DNA of 64,000 bases from Lichenicola cladoniae (GTDB lineage Bacteria; Pseudomonadota; Alphaproteobacteria; Acetobacterales; Acetobacteraceae). Positions 5,951 to 17,075 of this stretch are shown here, piece by piece; the first letter of the stretch is position 1; each line of letters starts with the position of its first letter. A model generated the notes under the pieces. The model was not told where the DNA came from, made no database searches, and saw only the letters and a program-made list of their open reading frames with translations. The stretch is from NCBI RefSeq assembly GCF_013201075.1, contig NZ_CP053708.1:1243501-1307500 (forward strand), read 5' to 3'. Both the position numbers and the translations under genes were made by a program.

Positions 5951-6937
5951 ATGACCCGCGGACCGTCGCGCAATGGTCCGGGCGTGTCGGATCCGGTAAT
6001 GCGCCTGGCTCCGTTGCCGCCCGCTTCTATCGGCATGGGCAACACGCCGCCGGTCCTGGCGCCGGCGCTGCCGACACGGCTGGCACCGATACCGTCGCGG
6101 CGGACCACGCAACCGGCAGTGCGGGTCCCGGCACAGGCGCGCGTGCGGCTGTTCGTGCCGTCGCGTGCGTGGGGCGGACGCCGGCGACGCGAGCTGCTGT
6201 TCGCAGCCGCCGGGCTGGCGGTTCTGTTCCATGTGCTGCTGACCGTGGCCATCCTGGAGGCGCCGCATCTGTGGCCCGCACCGGCGACCCCGCTCGCGGC
6301 GCCGCCGCCATCCGCCTCGGACCCGCCGACCATCGAGATGCTGATGGACAAGAACCGCTATGCCGGCGGCTCCCAGGCGACCCCGCCGGCGAGCCCGACG
6401 CCGCCGGCACCGGTCGCGCCGCCGTCGCCGCCCAAGCCGCAGCCACCCGCGGCGCCCGACCTGGCCTCATCCACCCTGGCGTCCCGCGAGCAGGTGACGG
6501 TGCCACCGGCGTCGCATGACCCGACCACGACGCGGCCGCCCAGCCCGACGCCCCCGGCGCCGGAGGCGGCAGCCCAGCCGAGCCAGCCCCAGGTCAACCT
6601 CGATCAGGCCGATGGGCTCGGCTACGGCATGCAGGACGATCCGAGGATCATCCCTGCGAGCCCGGACGACAGCCATGCCAACCGGATGCCTCCCTATCCG
6701 CCCGCCGCCGGCCGGCGCGGCGAGGAGGGATCGGTGCAGATGCTGATCCGGATCGCCGCCGACGGGTCGGTCACCTCGGTCGAGGTCGCGACCAGTTCGG
6801 GCTACCAGACCCTCGACCGCACCGCGCGGGACGCGGTCGTGCACTGGCACTTCAGGCCGGCCGTCCAGGACGGCGTCGCGGTCCCGACCCAGATGATGCA
6901 GGTCTTCAACTTCAGGATCGACCGCAAGCACCCGTAG
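5951..6937 (+). CDS. TonB-like energy transducer
   Basis: 328-aa protein with a long cytoplasmic N-terminus (about 78 aa), one transmembrane helix (LLFAAAGLAVLFHVLLTVAI, about 80-100), a periplasmic Pro/Ala/Ser-rich spacer (about 115-215) and a C-terminal TonB domain (about 235-325). In that domain MPPYPPAAGRRGEEGSVQM, VTSVEVATSSGYQTLDR and WHFRPA are the family landmarks. TonB proteins pass proton-motive energy from ExbBD to outer-membrane receptors. No exbB/exbD or receptor gene lies nearby, so its partner is unknown; it could also be a TonB-domain scaffold. The N-terminus ahead of the membrane helix is longer than in textbook TonB. Confidence 0.82.
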   Translation: MTRGPSRNGPGVSDPVMRLAPLPPASIGMGNTPPVLAPALPTRLAPIPSRRTTQPAVRVPAQARVRLFVPSRAWGGRRRRELLFAAAGLAVLFHVLLTVAILEAPHLWPAPATPLAAPPPSASDPPTIEMLMDKNRYAGGSQATPPASPTPPAPVAPPSPPKPQPPAAPDLASSTLASREQVTVPPASHDPTTTRPPSPTPPAPEAAAQPSQPQVNLDQADGLGYGMQDDPRIIPASPDDSHANRMPPYPPAAGRRGEEGSVQMLIRIAADGSVTSVEVATSSGYQTLDRTARDAVVHWHFRPAVQDGVAVPTQMMQVFNFRIDRKHP

Positions 6938-7060
6938 GAACAACCCGGTGGTGGTTTGGACATCGCCAGCTATGACTTTCCTGTGTAATCGATGGGCGGT
7001 CTGGAACCTGCGGTTGGCGGATGGTCCAGGTCCTGCCCCGGTTCCGATATCTTGCAGGAA

Positions 7061-9118
7061 ATGGCCGATGGCGAACTCGTGCACCACACACTGCGCATCG
7101 ATGGCGCCCTGAAGATGCCCAACGATCTTCGGATGGCACGCAGCCCGGTCGTGCAGCGGGACGGCGCCTACCATCTCAGGCTCCCTGGCGGCGGTACTGC
7201 GCCGCTCTACGACCAGCCCGGCTTGGCGGCTCGAAGCTTCCTCGACGGCTGGTCGCCCACCGCCTTCCATCCCGGCATCGGTCCGTTGCGCCTGCTTGCA
7301 TTCACCGGGCCGGATGGTGCCCGCGCCTGCTGGTTTCTCGACCAGGGCAACGTGCGCCTGGGCGACAGCCTGACCGACCTTCCGCCCGAGGTGGCGGGCG
7401 CGTTCCTGGCGGCTGCCTGCCCAATGCTGCAGGGCCTCGTCCGCGAGGTCATGCTGCGGCCGAGGCCGCGGCCGTCGGCACTCGAAGCCGCGGACGCGTT
7501 GCTGCTGCTCGGCCCGCTGGTATGCGAGCAGGCGGTGGAGGCGATCGGCGACGACCTCGTCCTGAAGCCGCGGATGATGCTGGTGGACAAGCTTTCGCCG
7601 ACCATCTCGATCGACACTCCGGACGGAAACCAGGTCGAGGCCGGTATCGACCGCCTGCACATCCAGTCCGGCTTCGCCGTCACCCTGCAGGACCGCCTGG
7701 TCGCCTCGACCCGGAACGGCGTGCTGACCTGGCCCAGTCCGGTCAATGGCCGTCCGTTGCAGGTACAGGGCTGCCTGTATTTGGACGATTTCCGCCTGGC
7801 CTACCGGTTTGCCGATACCATCCACGGTCTGGTCTTCTACGTGATCGCTTCGGACCATCTGTGCCGCGCACTCGGGATATACTTCCCGACCGGCAACCTC
7901 CTGGTGGTGAAGGACGAGTGGAGCCGGCACCTGTCCGACGTCTATTTCCCGGACGGGGTCGGGCGCCGGATCGCCAGCCACTGCGCAGCCTGGGCGCAGG
8001 AGCTGGTTCCCTATCTCGCCCGCGGCGTGCAGGGGACCGCCAGCATCATGCGTGGCCCCTCGGGCGCGCATCTCGGCCATCAGCTCTGGAACGAGCTGAC
8101 CGGCATGGAGACGCTGCTGACCCATGCGGCCGGGTCGTTCATCCCGGAATGGATCGTCGCCGGCGCCGGTGAGGGCGTCGAGTTCTGGGGCCCGATCGAG
8201 CGGCTGTTTCCCGAGCTCGAGGGCCGCGTCAACCGCACGCTCGCCGACGATGCCGGGATCACCGCGTATCTGTATGCCAAGGGCCTGTGCGCCGCGCGGG
8301 TGACCGGGGAACGTATCTCGGCCGAGTTGCGCCGGCGCCTGCAGGCGAGCGTGGACACGGGGGCGGCGCGGCATCGGCTGCACGCGCTTCGGCGCCAGAC
8401 CGGCAAGGCGTCCGGCCCGCAAATGCCCGGCGACATGCCGCCGCCGGTCATCCTGCTGGGGCTGCGTGTCGAGAACCGGACGATGACCGACCTCGCCGGC
8501 TTCTGTATCAGGCTGGCCGGCCTGATCGCCAGGACCTGGCCGGGCGCGGTCCTGGTCGTGGATGGCCATAATTCGCGGGAAGGCGGGACCGGCGTGCACA
8601 GCAGCCGGATCATGAGCCATGGCGAGGTGCTGGCGGCGCACACGCCGCTGAGCATCGAGCAGGCGATCGTCGTCCAGATGCGCGCTGCATTGGCTGGCCT
8701 GCCGATCCATATCGAGGACACGCTCGACCAGCCGATCGGCGCCAGCCTGGCGTGGTCGATGCTGTCAGACTGCTTCATCTCAATCTGGGGCGCGAGCCTC
8801 GCCAAGTTCCGCTGGGTCTGCAACAAGCCGGGGCTTGCGGTCAGTAGCCGGGCCAACCTGCTGCACCGCGACGACCTGCACATCTACGACCAGCCGCGCT
8901 ACATGGAAGACCCGACCCGGTTGCTGATGGCGGACCCCGCCTCCGTCACCGACGAACCGGACGCGCCCCGTCTGGTGCCGGTGGCCCTCGACAATCCCTT
9001 CTTTGCCAATTTCCGGGTCGACGAGGACCGGCTGTTCGACCAGTTCCGCGCCTTCGTGTTCGAGGTGATGACGGAGGCGTCGCTGAACGGTGCCGCGACC
9101 CCGCCGCCGGGGACGTAG
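7061..9118 (+). CDS. Large protein of unknown family, paralogue A; possible glycosyltransferase-like C-terminus
   Basis: 685 aa, no signal peptide or clear membrane helix. It is plainly homologous, end to end, to the protein at 12107-14077. Shared landmarks: WPSPVNG, an MRGPSGAHLGHQLWNEL block (about residue 330), GEGVEFWGPIERLFPEL, VILLGLRVENRTM, a VVDGHNS turn, SIWGASLAKFRWVCN (about 575) and TDEPDAPRLVPVA. The late WGA(S/G)LAK..W..N motif in a Rossmann-like context is reminiscent of GT-B/GT61-type sugar transferases, but this is only an analogy. The start is uncertain: ATG 6992 is in frame, and 7061 was chosen because it gives the same 21-residue leader as the paralogue. It opens the cassette ending at 14077. 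Confidence 0.7.
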   Translation: MADGELVHHTLRIDGALKMPNDLRMARSPVVQRDGAYHLRLPGGGTAPLYDQPGLAARSFLDGWSPTAFHPGIGPLRLLAFTGPDGARACWFLDQGNVRLGDSLTDLPPEVAGAFLAAACPMLQGLVREVMLRPRPRPSALEAADALLLLGPLVCEQAVEAIGDDLVLKPRMMLVDKLSPTISIDTPDGNQVEAGIDRLHIQSGFAVTLQDRLVASTRNGVLTWPSPVNGRPLQVQGCLYLDDFRLAYRFADTIHGLVFYVIASDHLCRALGIYFPTGNLLVVKDEWSRHLSDVYFPDGVGRRIASHCAAWAQELVPYLARGVQGTASIMRGPSGAHLGHQLWNELTGMETLLTHAAGSFIPEWIVAGAGEGVEFWGPIERLFPELEGRVNRTLADDAGITAYLYAKGLCAARVTGERISAELRRRLQASVDTGAARHRLHALRRQTGKASGPQMPGDMPPPVILLGLRVENRTMTDLAGFCIRLAGLIARTWPGAVLVVDGHNSREGGTGVHSSRIMSHGEVLAAHTPLSIEQAIVVQMRAALAGLPIHIEDTLDQPIGASLAWSMLSDCFISIWGASLAKFRWVCNKPGLAVSSRANLLHRDDLHIYDQPRYMEDPTRLLMADPASVTDEPDAPRLVPVALDNPFFANFRVDEDRLFDQFRAFVFEVMTEASLNGAATPPPGT

Positions 9119-9260
9119 GCGTCCGCCGCAGACGCACGGTTGTAGCCGGACTGTCGCGGACACGCGATTTTCGTCTAGGATTGTTCCGGAGGCAGCCGGT
9201 CTGGGTGCCCGACAGGATGCGTCCGGCGCCGCCCGACCGCAGGCTTTCGAGAGGATGGTC

Positions 9261-10367
9261 ATGGTTTCGAGAGTGGCGATCATCGGTGCCGGCTGGTATG
9301 GCTGTCATCTCGGCAGTTCGCTGAAGTCGCTGGGCTTCGACGTCAAGGTGTTCGAGCAGCACCACCGGCCGCTGCACGAGGCATCCGGCAACAACCAGTT
9401 CCGACTGCATCTCGGCTTCCATTATCCGCGCCATCACGGCACCCGGGTGCAGTCGCGCGACGGGTTCATGCGGTTCATGGAGCGCTATCCGCAGCTCAGC
9501 CGCGAGGTCGTCGAGAACATCTACGCGGTGCCGAAGGCCGAGAGCCTGATCGACTTCGCGACATACCGGCTGATCATGACCTCGACCGGCATCGAGTTCC
9601 GGGAGCAGAACGAGACCTCGATCCCGATCCGCGAGATCGCCGGGCTGATGCTGACCGCCGAGCGGGTGCTGCTGATCGAGCAGGCTCGCCGGTTCTTCAG
9701 GGACCTGCTGGGCGACAGCCTGGTGCTGAACCACAAGGTGACCTCGATCGAGGAGGACACCGACTGCGTCATGGTCGAGGGCGAACCCTACGACCTGCTG
9801 ATCGACGCGAGCTGGGGACAGCAGCTCGGCATGCCGATGCCGTTCTTCTACGAGCCGACCGTGCTGCTCTATTACGAGACCGACCACGCCTTTCCGGCCT
9901 GCACGTTCGTCGATGGTCCGCTCTGCTCGGTGTATCCGACCGAGGATCCGAACATCTACACCCTCTCCAGCGTGCCGCACACGCCGCTGGCCCGCGTGAC
10001 GAATGCGCAAGAGGCCCAGCGGATCCGCGACAGCGTCTCGTCGGAAACCGTCAGCGCCAAGGTGAAGGCGATGGAGGAACAGGTCGGCCGCTACCTGCCG
10101 ACGTTCAAGGAGAGCTTCCGGTTCGTCGGCCCGCAGCTTGCCATCAAGACCAAGCCGGTCGGCAACTTCGACGATCGCAGCTGCTCGGTGTTCCGGCGCG
10201 GCCGCGTGTTCCATGTCATGTCGGGCAAGATCGACACGATCTTCTTCGCCATGGAGCGGATCCTGGCCTTCATCGAATCCAGCCGCGAGCGGGGCTTCAC
10301 GCCGCTGGCGAGCCCGCTGCGACGCGACATCGTCAAGCGCAGTCTGCTGACCCAGGAGCAGGGCTGA
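9261..10367 (+). CDS. FAD-dependent oxidoreductase (DAO-like fold)
   Basis: 368-aa flavoprotein. The N-terminal dinucleotide-binding motif GAGWYG (residues 9-14) in SRVAIIGAGWYGCHLG is followed by a strand ending in the ribose-binding Glu (VKVFE). A His-rich substrate stretch follows (FRLHLGFHYPRHHGT, about 47-62), then a DLLIDASWG FAD contact and a C-terminal GRVFHVMSGKIDTIFF segment. The fold resembles D-amino-acid oxidase-type or sugar oxidoreductases seen in polysaccharide clusters; the substrate is unknown. Start chosen at 9261, where GAGAGG sits 6 nt upstream; ATG 9255 is too close to that site. The next gene begins 5 bp after its stop, so the two are probably co-translated. Confidence 0.78.
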   Translation: MVSRVAIIGAGWYGCHLGSSLKSLGFDVKVFEQHHRPLHEASGNNQFRLHLGFHYPRHHGTRVQSRDGFMRFMERYPQLSREVVENIYAVPKAESLIDFATYRLIMTSTGIEFREQNETSIPIREIAGLMLTAERVLLIEQARRFFRDLLGDSLVLNHKVTSIEEDTDCVMVEGEPYDLLIDASWGQQLGMPMPFFYEPTVLLYYETDHAFPACTFVDGPLCSVYPTEDPNIYTLSSVPHTPLARVTNAQEAQRIRDSVSSETVSAKVKAMEEQVGRYLPTFKESFRFVGPQLAIKTKPVGNFDDRSCSVFRRGRVFHVMSGKIDTIFFAMERILAFIESSRERGFTPLASPLRRDIVKRSLLTQEQG

Positions 10368-10372
10368 ACACC

Positions 10373-11179
10373 ATGAGCGAGAGCCCTGCAATGAGCGTAC
10401 GCGCACTGATCGGCCATACCGGTTTCGTCGGCTCCAACCTGATCCGGCAGCAGGGCTTCGACAAACTCTACAACTCGACCAGCATCGGCCAGATCGACGG
10501 CGACCATTTCACCGACGTGATATGCGCGGGCGTCGGGGCGGTGAAATGGTGGGCGAACCAGAACGCGGACGAGGATCGTGCGCGGATCGAAGGCCTGATC
10601 GCCCATCTCGACACCATCACCACCGACAACTTCACCCTGATCTCGACCATCGACGTCTACGGCTCGCCGATCGGGGTCAGCGAGGCGGACCAGCCGATCC
10701 TCGAGGGCCTGCATCCCTATGGCTCGAACCGCGCCATGCTGGAGCGTTACGTGTCCGACCGCTTCGCCAATCACCAGATCGTCCGCCTGCCGGCACTGTT
10801 CGGGGCGGGCCTGAAGAAGAACGCGATCTACGACCTGATGAACGGCAACCGCATCGACGTGATCAACGGCGCCTCGGTGTTCCAGTGGTATCCGCTCGAA
10901 CGGCTGTCGGCGGATCTCGAACTGGCCCGCACCCGTCACCTGGGCGTGGTAAACCTCGCCACCGAACCGGTGTCGATGGAGGAGATCCGGGCGCGGTTCT
11001 TTCCCGGCAGTGCGATCGGCGCGGATGCGGCCCCGCAGGCCCGTTACGACATGCGTACGATCCATGACGCGGAGTTCGGGGGCGTGGACGGCTACATTCT
11101 CGACAAGGCAGGGGTGCTTGCGGCGATGGAGCGGTTCATCGCCAATGAGAGTGGCACGACGGACGGAGCCCGCATGTGA
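10373..11179 (+). CDS. NAD-dependent epimerase/dehydratase-like protein (extended SDR) with Arg at the catalytic Lys position
   Basis: 268 aa. The cofactor loop GHTGFVG (residues 14-20) fits GxxGxxG of extended short-chain dehydrogenases. STIDVYG (91-97) supplies the Ser/Thr. The active-site tetrad should read YxxxK, but here it is Y116-G-S-N-R120, with Arg for Lys. The acidic residue that normally ends strand 2 is not obvious, so NADP or a degenerate site is possible. Likely substrate is a nucleotide sugar or sugar derivative, given the neighbours (inference). ATG 10391 is an alternative start. The stop overlaps the GTG of the isomerase gene by 3-4 bp, which suggests translational coupling. 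Confidence 0.78.
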   Translation: MSESPAMSVRALIGHTGFVGSNLIRQQGFDKLYNSTSIGQIDGDHFTDVICAGVGAVKWWANQNADEDRARIEGLIAHLDTITTDNFTLISTIDVYGSPIGVSEADQPILEGLHPYGSNRAMLERYVSDRFANHQIVRLPALFGAGLKKNAIYDLMNGNRIDVINGASVFQWYPLERLSADLELARTRHLGVVNLATEPVSMEEIRARFFPGSAIGADAAPQARYDMRTIHDAEFGGVDGYILDKAGVLAAMERFIANESGTTDGARM

Positions 11180-11997
11180 GGCGGCTCGGCGTTTCGAACC
11201 TCGCCTGGAGCCCTGAGTCGGAAGCACGCGCATTCGCGCTTCTGGCCGGGCACGCCGTCGACGGCGTCGAGGTGGCGCCGACCCGCATCGCTCCGTGGGA
11301 CGATCTGACCCCGGCGCGGCTGGCGGCATTCCGCGATGGCTGCACCGCGTCCGGCCTGTCGGTGAGTTCGCTGCAGGCGGTGTTCTTCGGCAAGCCGGAG
11401 GCGACGCTGCTCGCCGACCAGGCCGGCTTCGACGCGATGTGTGCCCACATGCACGTGCTGGCGAAAATCGCCGAGACGCTCGGGGCCGGCGTCGCGGTGT
11501 TCGGCGCGCCCAGGAGCCGGCTCAAGGGCGACCTGTCGAACGACGATGCGATGGCGCTGGCGGCCGAGCGGCTCTCCGTGCTGGGCGACATCGCCGCAAC
11601 CGGCGGCCTGGTCCTCGGCATGGAGCCGGTGCCGCCCGTCTATGGCGCCGACTTTCTCAACCGGTATCGCGACATCATCGCGATCGTCGAGATGACCGGC
11701 CACCCGAACATCCGCGCGCATCTCGATACCGGTTGCGTGACGCTCGGCGGCGACCGGCCGGCGGACGCGATCCGCGAGGCCGCTCCGCTGCTGGCGCATT
11801 ACCACATGGCCGAGGCGCAACTCGGATCGTTCGCGTCACCCGGCTTCGATCATGCGTCGGCCGGACGGGCGCTGGACGAGATCGGCTACGATCGCTGGGT
11901 GGTGATCGAGATGAAGCAGGGCGAGGGGGATGGCCTCGCGGACGTCGAGACCGCGATCGCCTACGCCCGGACGCATTATTTCGGTGCGGCAACCTGA
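11176..11997 (+). CDS. Sugar phosphate isomerase/epimerase family TIM-barrel protein
   Basis: 273 aa, AP-endonuclease-2/xylose-isomerase-like TIM barrel. Typical elements: a short first strand (RRLGVSNLAWSP), VFGAPRSRL, a catalytic-type Glu in LVLGMEPVPPVYG, LDTGCVTLGG with the metal-site Asp, HYHMAEAQLGSF with the metal-site His, and a final VVIEMKQGEG strand supplying the last Glu. Members isomerise or epimerise keto/aldose sugars, often with a divalent metal. The GTG start at 11176 overlaps the preceding stop (ATGTGA), so it belongs to the same operon as the FAD oxidoreductase and SDR. Substrate not deducible. Confidence 0.8.
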   Translation: MRRLGVSNLAWSPESEARAFALLAGHAVDGVEVAPTRIAPWDDLTPARLAAFRDGCTASGLSVSSLQAVFFGKPEATLLADQAGFDAMCAHMHVLAKIAETLGAGVAVFGAPRSRLKGDLSNDDAMALAAERLSVLGDIAATGGLVLGMEPVPPVYGADFLNRYRDIIAIVEMTGHPNIRAHLDTGCVTLGGDRPADAIREAAPLLAHYHMAEAQLGSFASPGFDHASAGRALDEIGYDRWVVIEMKQGEGDGLADVETAIAYARTHYFGAAT

Positions 11998-12106
11998 TCG
12001 GGACGATGCGGCATGCTCACGATCGGCCAGGTAGGATTGAGTCCATGACCGGCCTCGGTCCGGACATTCCCCATCCGCAAAAGCCGTGCGCGTGGTAGAA
12101 ACGTTC

Positions 12107-14077
12107 GTGAGCCAGTCTGCCGGCACCGTGGCTGATCCGGCGACGTCGCCCGCCCTGCCGCCCGGCGGTGACTATCTGATCGCGGATCCGCTCTTTCTCA
12201 AGAACGGATCGCTTCACATCACCCTGTGCGGCCATGACCTGCCGTTGCTGATGAGCGGCGAGCCGGTACGGGAGTTCCTGCCCGGCTGGCGTGCGGCGGC
12301 GCTGTTCACCGGGTTTGCGCCGTTGTTCCTGCTCGAACTGGTTCATGACAGCGGTGCCCGCGCGACCTGGTTCCACGACCACCGGCTGCAGCGGATAGGT
12401 GACGCCGTTGCTGCATTACCGCGTGAATTGGCCGATCTATTGAAAAGCCGTGCCGTGCCGCTGCTCCGGTTGCTGACTGGCCCCTTGTTGGGAAGCTGCA
12501 CTCCTTTTGTCGATCCCCGGGTGCGCGCCTTCCTCGGCGTCAACGAGGCCACCCGCCTGGCGATCGGCATGCTCTGCGTCGACGAGCTGGTGCGTCCGCC
12601 GATCCTGCATCTCGTGGGCGAACTGGTATCGAACGCGCTGGTGTATCGCGGCGAGGACGACCGCCTACGGCTGCTCGACCATGACTGGGTTTCGGAAGCG
12701 CTTTTTCAGGACTGGCAGGATCGTATCGCTGGCTTCGCGCGTGCAGGCCGGATGAGCTGGCCGAGCCCGGTCGATGGCGTCGAGTTGTATGCGCAGGGCG
12801 GACTGGTATTCGACGATTTCCATTTCGCCTTCCGCTTCGTGGACCACCGGCACAAGCTGGTGTTCTTCGTCATGGTCGGCGAGCACCTGTCGGCGATCGC
12901 CGGCATCTGGTTCCCGTCGATGGGACTGATGGTCACCCGGGACGGGACGCAGCATGGTCTGGCCCGGGCCCTGATCCGCAGCATGCCGACCTGGTTCGTC
13001 ACCCACTCGCTGTTATGGGCGGATGAGTTGTTCGCCTACCTGAACAAGGGCGCCACCCGGTTCGCCAGCGTCATGCGCGGGCCGCCGGGGGTTCATATCG
13101 GCCACCAGCTCTGGAACGAGCTGAGCGGCATCGACCGCTACGTGCAGGATGCGCCCGACGCACTGCTCGAGTGGATCGTCCTGAATTCGGGTGAGGGGAT
13201 CGAGGTGTACGGGCCGATCGACCGGCTGTTCCCGGAACTCGCCGGTAAGGTCAATCGCCGCCTACATAACGCTGCCGACTTGGCCCGCTACGCTTATGAG
13301 CACGGCATCCTGGTGCTGCGCGTGACGCGTGAGCACGTGTCCCGCCGCCTGCGCCAGCGGATCCAGCAGCACGTGGCGCAACTGCCGGCCGCACGCCGGG
13401 TGACGGACATGCTGCCGGCGGGACGCGACGCTCCGGTGATCCTGTTCGGTCTGAGGGTCGAGAACCGCACGATCGTCGATCTCGGCGAGTTCCTGGAGCA
13501 CTTCGTGGCGTTCGTTGCCGATCGCTATCCGGGCGCCCTGATCGTGTTCGACGGCCATAACGCAGCCGGCGAGGAAGCGGATGGCAAGGTCATCGGCAGC
13601 CACGGCGAAGGGTTCGCCGGCCGCAGCCCGGTGAGCGTCGAGCACGAGCTGGTCTCGGGCCTGCGCACGGCTTTTTCCGAAAGCCCGGTGACGATCCTTG
13701 ACACCATCGGCGCACCGATTTCCGCCAGCATCGCCTGGGCGACCGCAAGCGACTGCTTCGTGTCGATCTGGGGTGCGAGCCTCGCGAAGTATCGCTGGGT
13801 CTGCAACGCGCCCGGCTATGTGCTGACCAGCCGCGCGAACCTGCTGCAGCGCGGCGACCTGCATATCTACGACGATCCCGCCTACATGCAGGACCCGTCG
13901 CCGCTGGTTTTCCCCGATCCCGATCTGATCACCGACGAACCGGATGCGGTGCAGCTCGTGCCGGTGGCGCCGGGGGACTGGGCGCTGTTCAATTTCCGTG
14001 TCGACCAGGCGCGGCTGCTGCCGGAGATCGGCATGTTCATCGATCGTGCCATGGAGGTTCGGGCCGACCGGGCCTGA
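12107..14077 (+). CDS. Large protein of unknown family, paralogue B; possible glycosyltransferase-like C-terminus
   Basis: 656 aa, homologous throughout to the protein at 7061-9118. Matching blocks: WPSPVDG, FDDFHFAFRFVDH, VMRGPPGVHIGHQLWNEL, GEGIEVYGPIDRLFPEL, VILFGLRVENRTIVDLGEF, IVFDGHNA, SIWGASLAKYRWVCN, a HIYDDPAYMQDPS stretch and TDEPDAVQLVPVA. No signal peptide or membrane helix, so presumably cytosolic. The conserved GHQLWNEL and WGASLAK motifs are the best guesses for catalytic or ligand-binding sites. A sugar-transferase role is inference only, from motif feel and the sugar-enzyme neighbours. Start uncertain: in-frame GTGs at 12086, 12092 and 12107; 12107 gives a leader equal in length to paralogue A. 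A 109-bp spacer separates it from the isomerase gene. Confidence 0.7.
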   Translation: MSQSAGTVADPATSPALPPGGDYLIADPLFLKNGSLHITLCGHDLPLLMSGEPVREFLPGWRAAALFTGFAPLFLLELVHDSGARATWFHDHRLQRIGDAVAALPRELADLLKSRAVPLLRLLTGPLLGSCTPFVDPRVRAFLGVNEATRLAIGMLCVDELVRPPILHLVGELVSNALVYRGEDDRLRLLDHDWVSEALFQDWQDRIAGFARAGRMSWPSPVDGVELYAQGGLVFDDFHFAFRFVDHRHKLVFFVMVGEHLSAIAGIWFPSMGLMVTRDGTQHGLARALIRSMPTWFVTHSLLWADELFAYLNKGATRFASVMRGPPGVHIGHQLWNELSGIDRYVQDAPDALLEWIVLNSGEGIEVYGPIDRLFPELAGKVNRRLHNAADLARYAYEHGILVLRVTREHVSRRLRQRIQQHVAQLPAARRVTDMLPAGRDAPVILFGLRVENRTIVDLGEFLEHFVAFVADRYPGALIVFDGHNAAGEEADGKVIGSHGEGFAGRSPVSVEHELVSGLRTAFSESPVTILDTIGAPISASIAWATASDCFVSIWGASLAKYRWVCNAPGYVLTSRANLLQRGDLHIYDDPAYMQDPSPLVFPDPDLITDEPDAVQLVPVAPGDWALFNFRVDQARLLPEIGMFIDRAMEVRADRA

Positions 14078-14140
14078 CCTGCGGGGACGCGTCACCGGTC
14101 AGGCGTGGACACCGGTCGTACACTGCGTCTAGGACCGGGG

Positions 14141-15523
14141 ATGGACAACCAAGCCAGCCTTCCGCTTCGTTCGCGAACCGACCGCCATGCCGCCGGGAAG
14201 GCGCTTCGCCAAGCCACCAGGCGCCCGGTGCACGCGGAGTGGCAGCCGTCGGCGAGCCGCCCCGATCCGATCGGCATCATCGAGGCCCAGGGCGCCAGTC
14301 GCATTCCCGAGCTGCTGCCGATCCGCTATGGCCGGATGAAGGCCTCGCCGCTCGCCTTCCTGCGCGGCGCGGCTGCGATCATGGCAGCCGATCTCGCAAC
14401 GACCCCAGCCAGCGGCCTGCGCGTGCAGAGCTGCGGCGACTGCCATCTGGCGAATTTCGGGAGCTACGCCACCCCGGAAGGCCTGCCGGTTTTCGACATC
14501 AACGATTTCGATGAAACGCTGCCTGCGCCGTTCGAGTGGGACGTCAAGCGCCTCGCCGCCAGCCTTGTCCTGAGCGGCCGCGAGCACGGATTGCGCGAAC
14601 GCGACAGCCGCCGGCTCGCCCTCGATGCCACGCAGGCCTACGGGCGCGAACTCGCGCGCCTGGCGCGACTGACCCCGCTGGAAGCCTGGGGCACCCGGAT
14701 CGACCTGCTGGATGCGATCGACGCGATCGACGACCACCATGCGAGGAACCGGGCCCGTGCCAGCCTGGACGAGCAACTGCACAGCGCGTCGACGCAGTTC
14801 GGCCTGCTCGACACCGGCAGCCGGACTCCGCGCCTGCGCGAGAAGCCGCCGCTGGTGATCCGCCTTCCCGAACATGAGGCCGCGACCCGGCAGGCATTCG
14901 CCCGCTATGCCGCAACGCTTTCGCCGGAACGCCGGCTGCTGCTCGAGCGCTACCGGCTCGAAGACGTCGTGTTCAAGGTGGTGGGTGTCGGCAGCGTCGG
15001 CACCTTCTGCGCGATTGGCCTGTTCGCCACCGCGGACGGCGAACCGCTGCTGCTGCAGATCAAGCAGGCGCAGGCGTCGGTGCTGGAACCGTTCGCCGGC
15101 GGATCGACCTATCCGGACGCAGGCGAGCGGGTGGTGGTTGGCCAGCGGATCATGCAGGCGGCGTCCGACCTTTTCCTGGGCTGGACCCACACCACCGGGC
15201 CGCATCATGACGACGATACCAGTGCCGCGGCCGGCCGGCAGTTCTATGTAAGGCGGGTCAAGGATGCCCGTCTTGCCGCCCTGGCGCCGCAGATCGAGCA
15301 GCACGGGCTGGCCGAGTATGCCGCCCTGTGCGGGCGAACGCTGGGCCGGGCGCATGCGCGGTCCGGCGACATCGTCGGGCTCGCCGCCTATCTCGGGCAA
15401 GGCCGCAGCTTCTCGCACGCGATCGCCGATTTCGCGGTGCTGTATGCCGACCAGACCGAGCGCGACTGGCAGGGCTTCAACCAGGCCATCGAGTCCGGCC
15501 GCCTGACTGCCGCGCCGGGCTGA
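14141..15523 (+). CDS. DUF2252 family protein
   Basis: About 460 aa. Recognised by the DUF2252 core: LLPIRYGRMKASPLAFLRG, SCGDCHLANFGSYA, VFDINDFDETLPAPFEWDVK and a late HARSGD segment. The layout recalls aminoglycoside-phosphotransferase/protein-kinase-like folds (HLANFG and DINDFD resembling catalytic and metal loops), but no reaction is established for the family. ATG 14141 was chosen over GTG 14105 because it begins right before the conserved N-terminal region and follows a G-rich stretch. It lies 63 bp after paralogue B and 9 bp before the MgtC-like gene, so the latter two are probably one transcript. Confidence 0.8.
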   Translation: MDNQASLPLRSRTDRHAAGKALRQATRRPVHAEWQPSASRPDPIGIIEAQGASRIPELLPIRYGRMKASPLAFLRGAAAIMAADLATTPASGLRVQSCGDCHLANFGSYATPEGLPVFDINDFDETLPAPFEWDVKRLAASLVLSGREHGLRERDSRRLALDATQAYGRELARLARLTPLEAWGTRIDLLDAIDAIDDHHARNRARASLDEQLHSASTQFGLLDTGSRTPRLREKPPLVIRLPEHEAATRQAFARYAATLSPERRLLLERYRLEDVVFKVVGVGSVGTFCAIGLFATADGEPLLLQIKQAQASVLEPFAGGSTYPDAGERVVVGQRIMQAASDLFLGWTHTTGPHHDDDTSAAAGRQFYVRRVKDARLAALAPQIEQHGLAEYAALCGRTLGRAHARSGDIVGLAAYLGQGRSFSHAIADFAVLYADQTERDWQGFNQAIESGRLTAAPG

Positions 15524-15532
15524 CGGAGCCGG

Positions 15533-16270
15533 GTGGTGAGCTATCCCGAACTGTCCGGCTGGTGGTCCGGCTTCCTGTCGAGCGCCTACGCGCACACGCT
15601 CGCCGGCTACACCACCGCCTTCCTTCTGGGCACGCTGATCGGGTTGGAGCGGCAGTGGCGGCAGCGGAGTGCCGGACTGCGCACCAACGTGCTGGTCGCG
15701 GTCGGCGCCGCCGCCTTCTCGGACCTCGGCATGCGCCTGCTGGGTGCGGACGGGGCGACCCGCATCATCTCCTACGTGATTTCCGGTATCGGCTTTCTCG
15801 GCGCCGGCGTGATCCTGAAGGACGGTACCAACATCCGCGGCCTCAACACCGCGGCCACGCTCTGGTGCTCGGCGGCGGTCGGCACGCTGGCCGGCAGCGG
15901 CCTGCACCTGGAGGCAGCCACGCTCGGCGGCTTCGTGCTTGCGGGCAATACGCTGCTGCGGCCGCTGGTGAACTGGGTCAATCGCCGTCCGCTCAGCGCA
16001 GAGGTGACGGAGGCGAAATACATGGTGCATGTCACCTGCCACCCGCGCGACGTCTCCGATGTTCGCGATCTGCTGGATGTCGAGCTGGACCGGGCGAACT
16101 ATCCGGTGCGCGAGGTCGAGATGCGGTCCAGCAGTAGCGAGCAGGTCGAGCTGGCCGCCATCCTGGTTCCGACCACGGCGAGCGAGGCGGAACTCGATGC
16201 CGTCATCGCCGCACTGGAGACCTCGTTGCTGGTCCTGTCCGCGACCTGGTCGGTCGAGGCGACGTCCTGA
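15533..16270 (+). CDS. MgtC/SapB family membrane protein
   Basis: 245 aa. The N-terminal two thirds are hydrophobic with about four to five transmembrane helices and carry the MgtC signatures LIGLERQWRQRSAGLRTN, GAAAFSDLG, GIGFLGAGVILK and GLNTAATLWCSAAVGTLAGSG. The C-terminal ~85 residues form a soluble, ACT-like regulatory domain (YMVHVTCHPRDVSDVRDLLD). MgtC-like proteins sit in the inner membrane and are linked to Mg2+ limitation and acid or intracellular survival; SapB-type members are less defined. Start is one of two tandem GTG codons (15533 or 15536), preceded by GGAG. Likely co-transcribed with the DUF2252 gene. Confidence 0.88.
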   Translation: MVSYPELSGWWSGFLSSAYAHTLAGYTTAFLLGTLIGLERQWRQRSAGLRTNVLVAVGAAAFSDLGMRLLGADGATRIISYVISGIGFLGAGVILKDGTNIRGLNTAATLWCSAAVGTLAGSGLHLEAATLGGFVLAGNTLLRPLVNWVNRRPLSAEVTEAKYMVHVTCHPRDVSDVRDLLDVELDRANYPVREVEMRSSSSEQVELAAILVPTTASEAELDAVIAALETSLLVLSATWSVEATS

Positions 16271-16388
16271 CAAGGTGTATGGTTGGCCGGACCCCTCTTG
16301 CAGCCATCACGGATGATGTTTCGAGTTCGGAACCAGGCTAATCGATGCGGCCCCTTCACTCATCGTTCCCAGCAGGAGAACCCGACCC

Positions 16389-17075
16389 ATGATCCAGTTC
16401 TATTACAGCCTGGCGCCGAACCCGATGAAGGTGGCGTTGTTCCTGGAGGAGGCGGGCCTCCCGTATGAGCCGATCCCCGTGGATACCCGCACCGGCGCGC
16501 AGTTCGACGCGGCGTTCGTCGCCCTGAACCCGAACGGCAAGGTGCCCTGCATCGTCGATGGCGACGCAACCGTGTTCGACAGCAACGCCATCCTGCTCTA
16601 CCTCGCCGAGAAAACCGGCCGGTTCCTGCCCGAGAGCTCGCCGGCGGCGCGTGGCGACCTGCTGTCCTGGCTGATGTTCGTGGCGACGGGGGTTGGTCCG
16701 TTTTCCGGCCAGGCCGTGCATTTCCGGCACGTTGCGCCGGAGCCGAAGGATTATGCGCTCACCCGCTACTCGTTCGAGGCCGAGCGGCACTGGGGCATCC
16801 TGGAAGCCCATCTTGCCGACCGGCCGTATATGCTGGGCGACACCTATACGATCGTCGACATGTCGGTCTGGGGATGGCTGCGCATGGTGCCGCGCGTGCT
16901 TGGCGGGGACGAGGTCTGGAGCAGGCTGCCGAACCTGAAGCGCCTGCTCGACGAGATCAACGCGCGCCCGGCCGCGATCCGCGCGCTTGCCCTCAAGGAC
17001 CGCCACGTCTTCAAGGCCGAAATGGACGATGCGGCCCGGCGGATCATGTTCCGGCACACCATCCCGGCCACCTGA
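16389..17075 (+). CDS. Glutathione S-transferase family protein
   Basis: 228 aa, two-domain GST. The N-terminal thioredoxin-like domain (1-80) has FYYSLAPNPMKVALFLEEAGLPYE, the cis-Pro loop GKVPCIVDG and DSNAILLYLAEK for glutathione contacts. The all-helical C-terminal domain has GDTYTIVDMSVWGW, the N-capping box typical of GSTs. The Ser in YYSLAPN is a plausible thiolate-activating residue. Role is probably conjugation or reduction of small electrophiles; substrate unknown. Preceded by AGCAGGAGAACC just upstream of ATG 16389. Monocistronic by spacing. Confidence 0.9.
   Translation: MIQFYYSLAPNPMKVALFLEEAGLPYEPIPVDTRTGAQFDAAFVALNPNGKVPCIVDGDATVFDSNAILLYLAEKTGRFLPESSPAARGDLLSWLMFVATGVGPFSGQAVHFRHVAPEPKDYALTRYSFEAERHWGILEAHLADRPYMLGDTYTIVDMSVWGWLRMVPRVLGGDEVWSRLPNLKRLLDEINARPAAIRALALKDRHVFKAEMDDAARRIMFRHTIPAT

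Follow-up and report, generated by a model that had tools for sequence, protein, structure and literature searches.

What do three small enzymes make when their genes lie between those of two large, related proteins? The question is raised by a 64,000-nucleotide stretch of the Lichenicola cladoniae genome (contig NZ_CP053708.1, positions 1,243,501 to 1,307,500, referred to here as the window; the host genome comprises 6.06 Mb in 8 contigs), which contains a cassette of genes for a flavin adenine dinucleotide (FAD)-dependent oxidoreductase, a short-chain dehydrogenase/reductase (SDR), and a triosephosphate isomerase (TIM)-barrel protein, flanked by the genes for large proteins A and B. We found that the FAD-SDR-TIM trio is a real conserved unit. 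We consider it likely that the trio is a donor-sugar module and that the large proteins are transferases of its product with the glycosyltransferase fold called GT-B, the transferase partner being swappable. An earlier note on this DNA had proposed that the small enzymes make a sugar that the large ones attach; this predicted division of labor is still the best reading, in view of the contiguity of the trio and the GT-B fold.

As that note had described, the cassette consists of five genes, the small ones nearly touching or overlapping. In a listing of open reading frames (ORFs), all five were found on the + strand at the place noted:

6992-9118, + strand: large protein A, an ORF whose product is 41% identical to B and has the conserved motifs of the large family
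9261-10367, + strand: FAD-dependent oxidoreductase of the DAO fold (the flavoenzyme); the ATG at 9261 is the start used in its closest homologues
10373-11179, + strand: SDR of the sugar-epimerase type with YxxxR replacing YxxxK (PF01370); homologues start near 10391
11176-11997, + strand: TIM-barrel isomerase/epimerase of the xylose-isomerase-like family (PF01261)
12086-14077, + strand: large protein B, by its modeled fold a GT-B glycosyltransferase, of the same unnamed family as A

The SDR and TIM genes overlap by 4 bases. Position 7061 is an in-frame ATG inside the gene for A (Met24) and a possible alternative start, and the FAD ORF opens at 9090, with 9255 as an alternative start.

The trio as a conserved unit

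A scan of the genome_contigs set with the flavoenzyme gave 46 loci, 32 of which (L074 to L105) were at least 50% identical to it over most of the query. The SDR gene accompanied the flavoenzyme gene in 31 of these 32 loci and both the SDR and TIM genes did so in 30, with the order the same. The exceptions were a contig that ends after the SDR gene (L079) and a locus in which neither partner was found (L103); in a further locus (L094), a large gene is inserted between the FAD and SDR genes. The other 14 loci (L106 to L119; 23 to 43% identity, with a short match in L118) had no SDR or TIM genes of these families. Of the 32 fetched stretches, 20 contained a large-family gene, within about 1 kb of the trio in 19 and about 6 kb away in L101; many of the contigs are short. 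The 32 loci are not independent of each other: L091 and L092 look like near copies, L074 to L076 and L090 are close to the window, and L089/L094 and L100/L101 are pairs that each come from one organism.

Carriers of the trio include Lichenicoccus, Acetobacter, Humitalea, Rubritepida, Roseococcus, Neorhizobium, Rhizobium tropici, Xaviernesmea, Methylorubrum, Methylobacterium, Asticcacaulis, Methylovulum, and Tritonibacter, as well as some metagenome-assembled genomes titled as other phyla, labels that are possibly wrong. The earlier note had pointed out the pair of flanking large genes as a feature of the cassette. Among the loci examined, only the window and Acetobacter fallax (L078) had a large gene on each side; typically the trio has a single large gene or none. 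The surrounding large genes come and go, and the trio is the fixed core.

More distant relatives of the flavoenzyme (about 23 to 37% identity), found in L107 and L109 to L116 (mostly Legionella and its kin), in the viral loci L121 to L126, and in L073, had no SDR or TIM partners of the trio families. In L073, from a genome with 24% GC, the relative adjoins genes that by eye resemble those for GDP-heptose synthesis. In Tritonibacter horizontis (L105:9998-11029), the flavoenzyme frame is broken by an in-frame stop and the SDR and TIM frames are open.

The large protein family and its association with the trio

The earlier note had called the two large proteins homologous, and an alignment of A with B bore this out (41% identity over 648 columns, E = 5e-150). 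It had also held that a match of these proteins to a characterized family with a different function would tell against its proposal. No such match was obtained by sequence: neither A nor B matched any Pfam or NCBIfam model up to E = 1, the GT61 model PF04577 and the GT9 model PF01075 included. Against solved structures, A had no sequence match up to E = 10, and a profile of the large family had one match, at E = 0.43, which we took as chance. The structure prediction and fold search suggested in the note were run on B. The confident model of B has a GT-B domain, made of two Rossmann domains, at residues of about 323 to 663, and its nearest folds are those of heptosyltransferases (GT9) and of POMGNT2 (GT61), among the chains ranked by Foldseek, which were re-ranked by VIA-align. 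By its modeled structure, large protein B thus has a GT-B glycosyltransferase fold, and A, by its 41% identity to B, is a probable GT-B glycosyltransferase. The remark in the earlier note that no known glycosyltransferase lies next to the small genes therefore no longer holds, as the large proteins appear to be GT-B transferases themselves. When the large family was compared with 19 GT61 proteins by hhalign, the probability was 22% (P = 0.001) over 44 columns at a GAxL motif; the likeness to GT9 is a fold match only. Profile comparison revealed no internal duplication of the beta-rich N-terminal stretches. It is very unlikely that the large proteins are GT-B-like without being transferases, for example resembling nonhydrolyzing epimerases or serving as inactive scaffolds, with their association with the trio reflecting another process.

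The large family and the trio occur together well beyond the window. Of 150 Acetobacteraceae genomes, 13 had the flavoenzyme (threshold E = 1e-40), 15 had the large family (E = 1e-20), and 12 had both, the large-family matches in two genomes (G420 and G455) being weak and partial. The large family was present in 12 of the 13 flavoenzyme carriers versus 3 of the 137 other genomes (hypergeometric p = 3e-14, shared ancestry ignored). By genus, the flavoenzyme was found in 10 and the large family in 11 of 102, with 9 shared (p = 2e-10, again ignoring shared ancestry). The neighborhood analysis across Acetobacteraceae that the earlier note had proposed thus found the two together, and its concern that the five genes might not co-occur in other genomes did not hold, as their families co-occur in this group. 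When 24 trio-bearing genomes were searched whole (24 of the 46 genome_contigs loci, all from L076 to L105), a large-family gene was found in 18 and none was found in the other 6 (L093, L096, L099, L102, L104, and L105); the trio can therefore do without the large family. Class-wide, at least 3 of 385 genomes had the flavoenzyme (E = 1e-30; one a distant relative) and at least 2 had the large family (E = 1e-15), both lower bounds because fewer candidates per genome were scored than in the smaller searches. A Fisher test of 18/24 versus 2/385 carries that same bias and was not used.

Within the family, a tree of 39 large proteins joined A to the large protein encoded upstream of the Lichenicoccus roseus trio (support 100/98). 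B fell in a group of 8 rows (97/93) that also contains the downstream large proteins of L042, L043, and L078 as well as unlinked copies. The upstream large gene of Acetobacter fallax fell on a different branch. Four relatives in the genus of the window each had 6 to 9 large-family matches, pieces of split genes being counted. The genome of L. cladoniae itself has a truncated copy (L037:9117-10022) and two longer ones (L036:9238-11694 and L035:8210-10816) in which the N-terminal stretch matches the family twice. Six candidate stretches for the large family in viral contigs yielded no confirmed member.

Genes around the trio in bacteria and phages

Gene calls in the relatives came from a simple script and are crude, and some gene names were assigned by eye. 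In Neorhizobium (L087), rml-like genes (by eye), a transferase gene with RgpF, GT2, and WsaF domains, and a large gene precede the trio in that order. In Asticcacaulis (L083), rml-like genes (by eye) are followed by a GT2/GT4 gene, a large gene, and the trio, after which come a probable permease gene (no Pfam match), an ABC ATPase gene (PF00005), and more genes that look like those for glycosyltransferases. GT2/GT4 genes also lie nearby in Xaviernesmea (L097) and in L091, so that glycosyltransferase genes are near the unit in each of these four loci. In Methylovulum miyakonense (L084), genes for an HMGL-like aldolase, a CTP_transf_3 cytidylyltransferase, and a HAD hydrolase precede the large gene and the trio; this set (L084:4517-7529) could make a CMP-activated acidic sugar.

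In the Acetobacteraceae loci that were read, the neighbors resemble housekeeping genes. In the window, L072, L074, L077, and L090, dnaG- and rpoD-like genes precede the trio; ribosomal-protein-like genes lie downstream in all of these except L072, in whose stretch none were seen. Upstream of the window cassette are dnaG-, rpoD-, and acetyltransferase-like genes (by eye) and a TonB-type gene (PF03544). Downstream, Pfam identifies DUF2252 and MgtC genes, and others resemble by eye genes for a glutathione transferase and ribosomal proteins. The DUF2252, MgtC, and glutathione-transferase-like genes (14105-17075) separate the cassette from the ribosomal-protein genes, which in the relative L042 come directly after the cassette. 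The GC content of the cassette, 64 to 70%, is similar to that of its surroundings, and a promoter and terminator scan of 6800 to 14300 gave counts near the shuffled background (1 versus 0.7 and 5 versus 2.9, respectively). A defense-system reading was rejected, as PADLOC gave no match up to E = 0.001 for the five cassette proteins or the DUF2252 protein. The earlier note had remarked that this does not look like an ordinary O-antigen locus. In the window, the 8 proteins searched from 5951 to 16270 included no flippase, polymerase, or exporter; in other organisms, the unit does lie among surface-polysaccharide genes.

A different partner was found when B was compared by tblastn with plasmids. 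Four records matched (L154, L155, L228, and L229), all of them from Methylobacterium, with the relatives of B annotated as hypothetical, and in all four the next gene after the large gene is annotated as a UDP-glucuronic acid decarboxylase; these plasmids are close relatives, and no trio gene is named in the stretches viewed. UDP-glucuronate decarboxylase was rejected as a general partner, since near other large genes only matches of 26 to 28% identity were found. The juxtaposition does lend something to the idea that what the large proteins transfer is an ordinary sugar, for instance xylose from UDP-xylose, and that the trio modifies a sugar already in a glycan or on a lipid carrier; the GT61 family is reported to include xylosyltransferases. 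With no such decarboxylase found near the other large genes examined, and with the trio also adjoining an unrelated transferase in phages, we regard this idea as improbable.

The phage evidence comes from two contigs and two annotated relatives. Nine viral contigs had a relative of the flavoenzyme, with the whole trio in two of them (L120 and L128) and the FAD and TIM genes in a third (L127). In both L120 (8928-14885) and L128 (953-6869), the order is a dCMP deaminase gene, a small gene, a glycosyltransferase (GT)-like gene, the FAD, SDR, and TIM genes, a DNA cytosine methylase gene (PF00145 in L120), and a UvsX-like gene; in L120, a DNA polymerase gene lies upstream and a DnaB-type helicase gene downstream. 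The GT-like gene of L120 belongs to PHROG 14998, of unknown function, and its L128 counterpart has a Glyco_trans_1_2 match below the cut-off, so that a transferase role is only inferred. Relatives of this gene were present in 38 phage records, and in the two viewed it lies beside a UDP-galactopyranose mutase gene: in Aeromonas phage Aes012 it follows the mutase gene (GLF domain, 183.5 bits), and in phage C48C1 it lies between a TET/JBP oxygenase gene and the mutase gene (176.9 bits). The trio region of L120 and L128, part of a T4-like phage replication module, looks like a DNA glycosylation unit. In C48C1, the oxygenase, GT-like, and mutase genes (L231:4586-8033) are a candidate route to furanosylated hydroxymethylcytosine.

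Predicted chemistry and comparison with known systems

The enzyme types named in the earlier note were confirmed in that each small protein passes its Pfam cut-off. The flavoenzyme belongs to the DAO family by PF01266 (28.3 bits versus a cut-off of 27.9) and by its fold, and it also passes PF13450. It was rejected as a UDP-galactopyranose mutase because it has no match to the GLF domain (PF03275), for which the two phage mutases score as given above, and has the DAO fold instead. The SDR scores 25.4 bits with PF01370 (cut-off 20.9). The catalytic motif of extended SDRs is YxxxK; in all 34 rows of the SDR alignment it is replaced by YGx[HN]R, and the arginine aligns to the lysine of 6zl6, which the SDR profile matches at E = 6e-5. 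Taken alone, neither the FAD protein nor the SDR matched a solved structure by sequence up to E = 0.01. The TIM protein scores 81.2 bits with PF01261 and matches a ketose 3-epimerase structure at E = 6e-8. Barrels of that type have a Glu-Asp-His-Glu metal tetrad, and the putative tetrad of the TIM protein (E150, D184, H210, and E245) is present in all 32 rows, of 36, that have letters there.

The nearest NCBIfam models of the TIM protein, IolO (5-keto-L-gluconate epimerase) and D-psicose 3-epimerase, reach 44.6 and 41.5 bits versus a cut-off of 300. Along with the fact that catabolism often employs xylose-isomerase-like barrels and DAO dehydrogenases, these scores would accord with the trio serving to break down or salvage a free sugar, a sugar acid, or inositol, its glycosyltransferase neighbors being merely frequent. 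We consider this unlikely: genes for kinases, sugar transporters, or regulators do not recur next to the trio in the neighborhoods that were clustered or read by eye, within the limits of the gene calling; the neighbors that do recur are glycosyltransferases; and sugar catabolism would be of little benefit to a phage within its replication module.

The donor-sugar reading is placed at the nucleotide-sugar level because two unrelated proteins, one GT-B by fold and the other GT-like, each adjoin either the trio or a UDP-sugar enzyme. Since the large family is paired elsewhere with a UDP-glucuronate decarboxylase, and the trio in phages with a GT-like gene whose relatives adjoin a UDP-galactopyranose mutase gene, the trio most likely makes an activated donor sugar for swappable transferases. 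We infer that this product is a nucleotide sugar and that the large proteins use it; the order of steps and the role in phages are on the same footing. A common sugar precursor, most likely already nucleotide linked, would be oxidized with the help of flavin, taken through an NAD(P)-dependent step by the SDR, and isomerized or epimerized with the help of a metal, the outcome being an unusual activated sugar. The large proteins, distantly akin to GT61 and GT9, would then transfer it to an envelope or surface glycan or to another acceptor. Such a module would be portable: its transferase partner would differ from one lineage to another, and T4-like phages would use the same trio with a different transferase, probably to glycosylate DNA bases. 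More tentatively, and with some doubt on our part, the trio may be an undescribed pathway to a nucleotide sugar new to bacteria, feeding both a surface-decorating GT-B family and a phage transferase that glycosylates cytosine.

Several observations weigh against the donor-sugar reading. The window cassette has no nucleotidyltransferase gene, which fits a nucleotide-sugar substrate and also free-sugar chemistry, and the family to which the TIM protein belongs normally acts on free sugars. DAO-fold enzymes mostly oxidize amines or alpha-hydroxy acids, so the sugar step of the flavoenzyme is not obvious, and the SDR, with its YxxxR motif, may be inactive as an oxidoreductase or may use another proton path. 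The sequence likeness of the large family to GT61 is weak and the hhalign probability for GT9 is only 2%; the co-occurrence p-values take no account of ancestry. Given the 6 of 24 trio genomes in which no large-family gene was found, and G002, in which the trio and the large genes are on different contigs, the pairing is not obligatory. Finally, the complete trio is missing from 7 of the 9 viral contigs in which a flavoenzyme relative was found.

No description of the trio or of the large family was found among the titles and abstract openings listed, often a part of the matches, from open-licence texts. A large family called hypothetical in four annotated records now has a fold and hence a testable role, and a compact three-gene module of fixed order is shared by bacterial polysaccharide loci and a phage replication module. 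If a new sugar is made, it would be a donor for glycan engineering and another way for phages to alter their DNA.

Like the genes that supply dTDP-rhamnose or UDP-xylose, the trio consists of small sugar enzymes encoded beside a transferase that would use their product, but it has a flavoenzyme, a YxxxR SDR, and a ketose-epimerase-type barrel in place of the classical enzymes. The large family differs from GT61 (PF04577), POMGNT2 (AGO61) included, in its lack of a Pfam match, its weak profile likeness, about 300 extra beta-rich N-terminal residues, and invariant motifs of its own; it differs from the GT9 heptosyltransferases WaaC and WaaF in having no PF01075 match and a profile comparison near background. 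For the phages, the closest parallel is RB69, in which the DNA polymerase and UvsX genes reportedly enclose a module thought to provide UDP-arabinose for modifying DNA by arabinosylation (PMC6024577). The sugar genes of L120 occupy this same interval of a T4-like phage; the RB69 genes differ from the trio, and their host is E. coli, whereas the trio is mostly bacterial.

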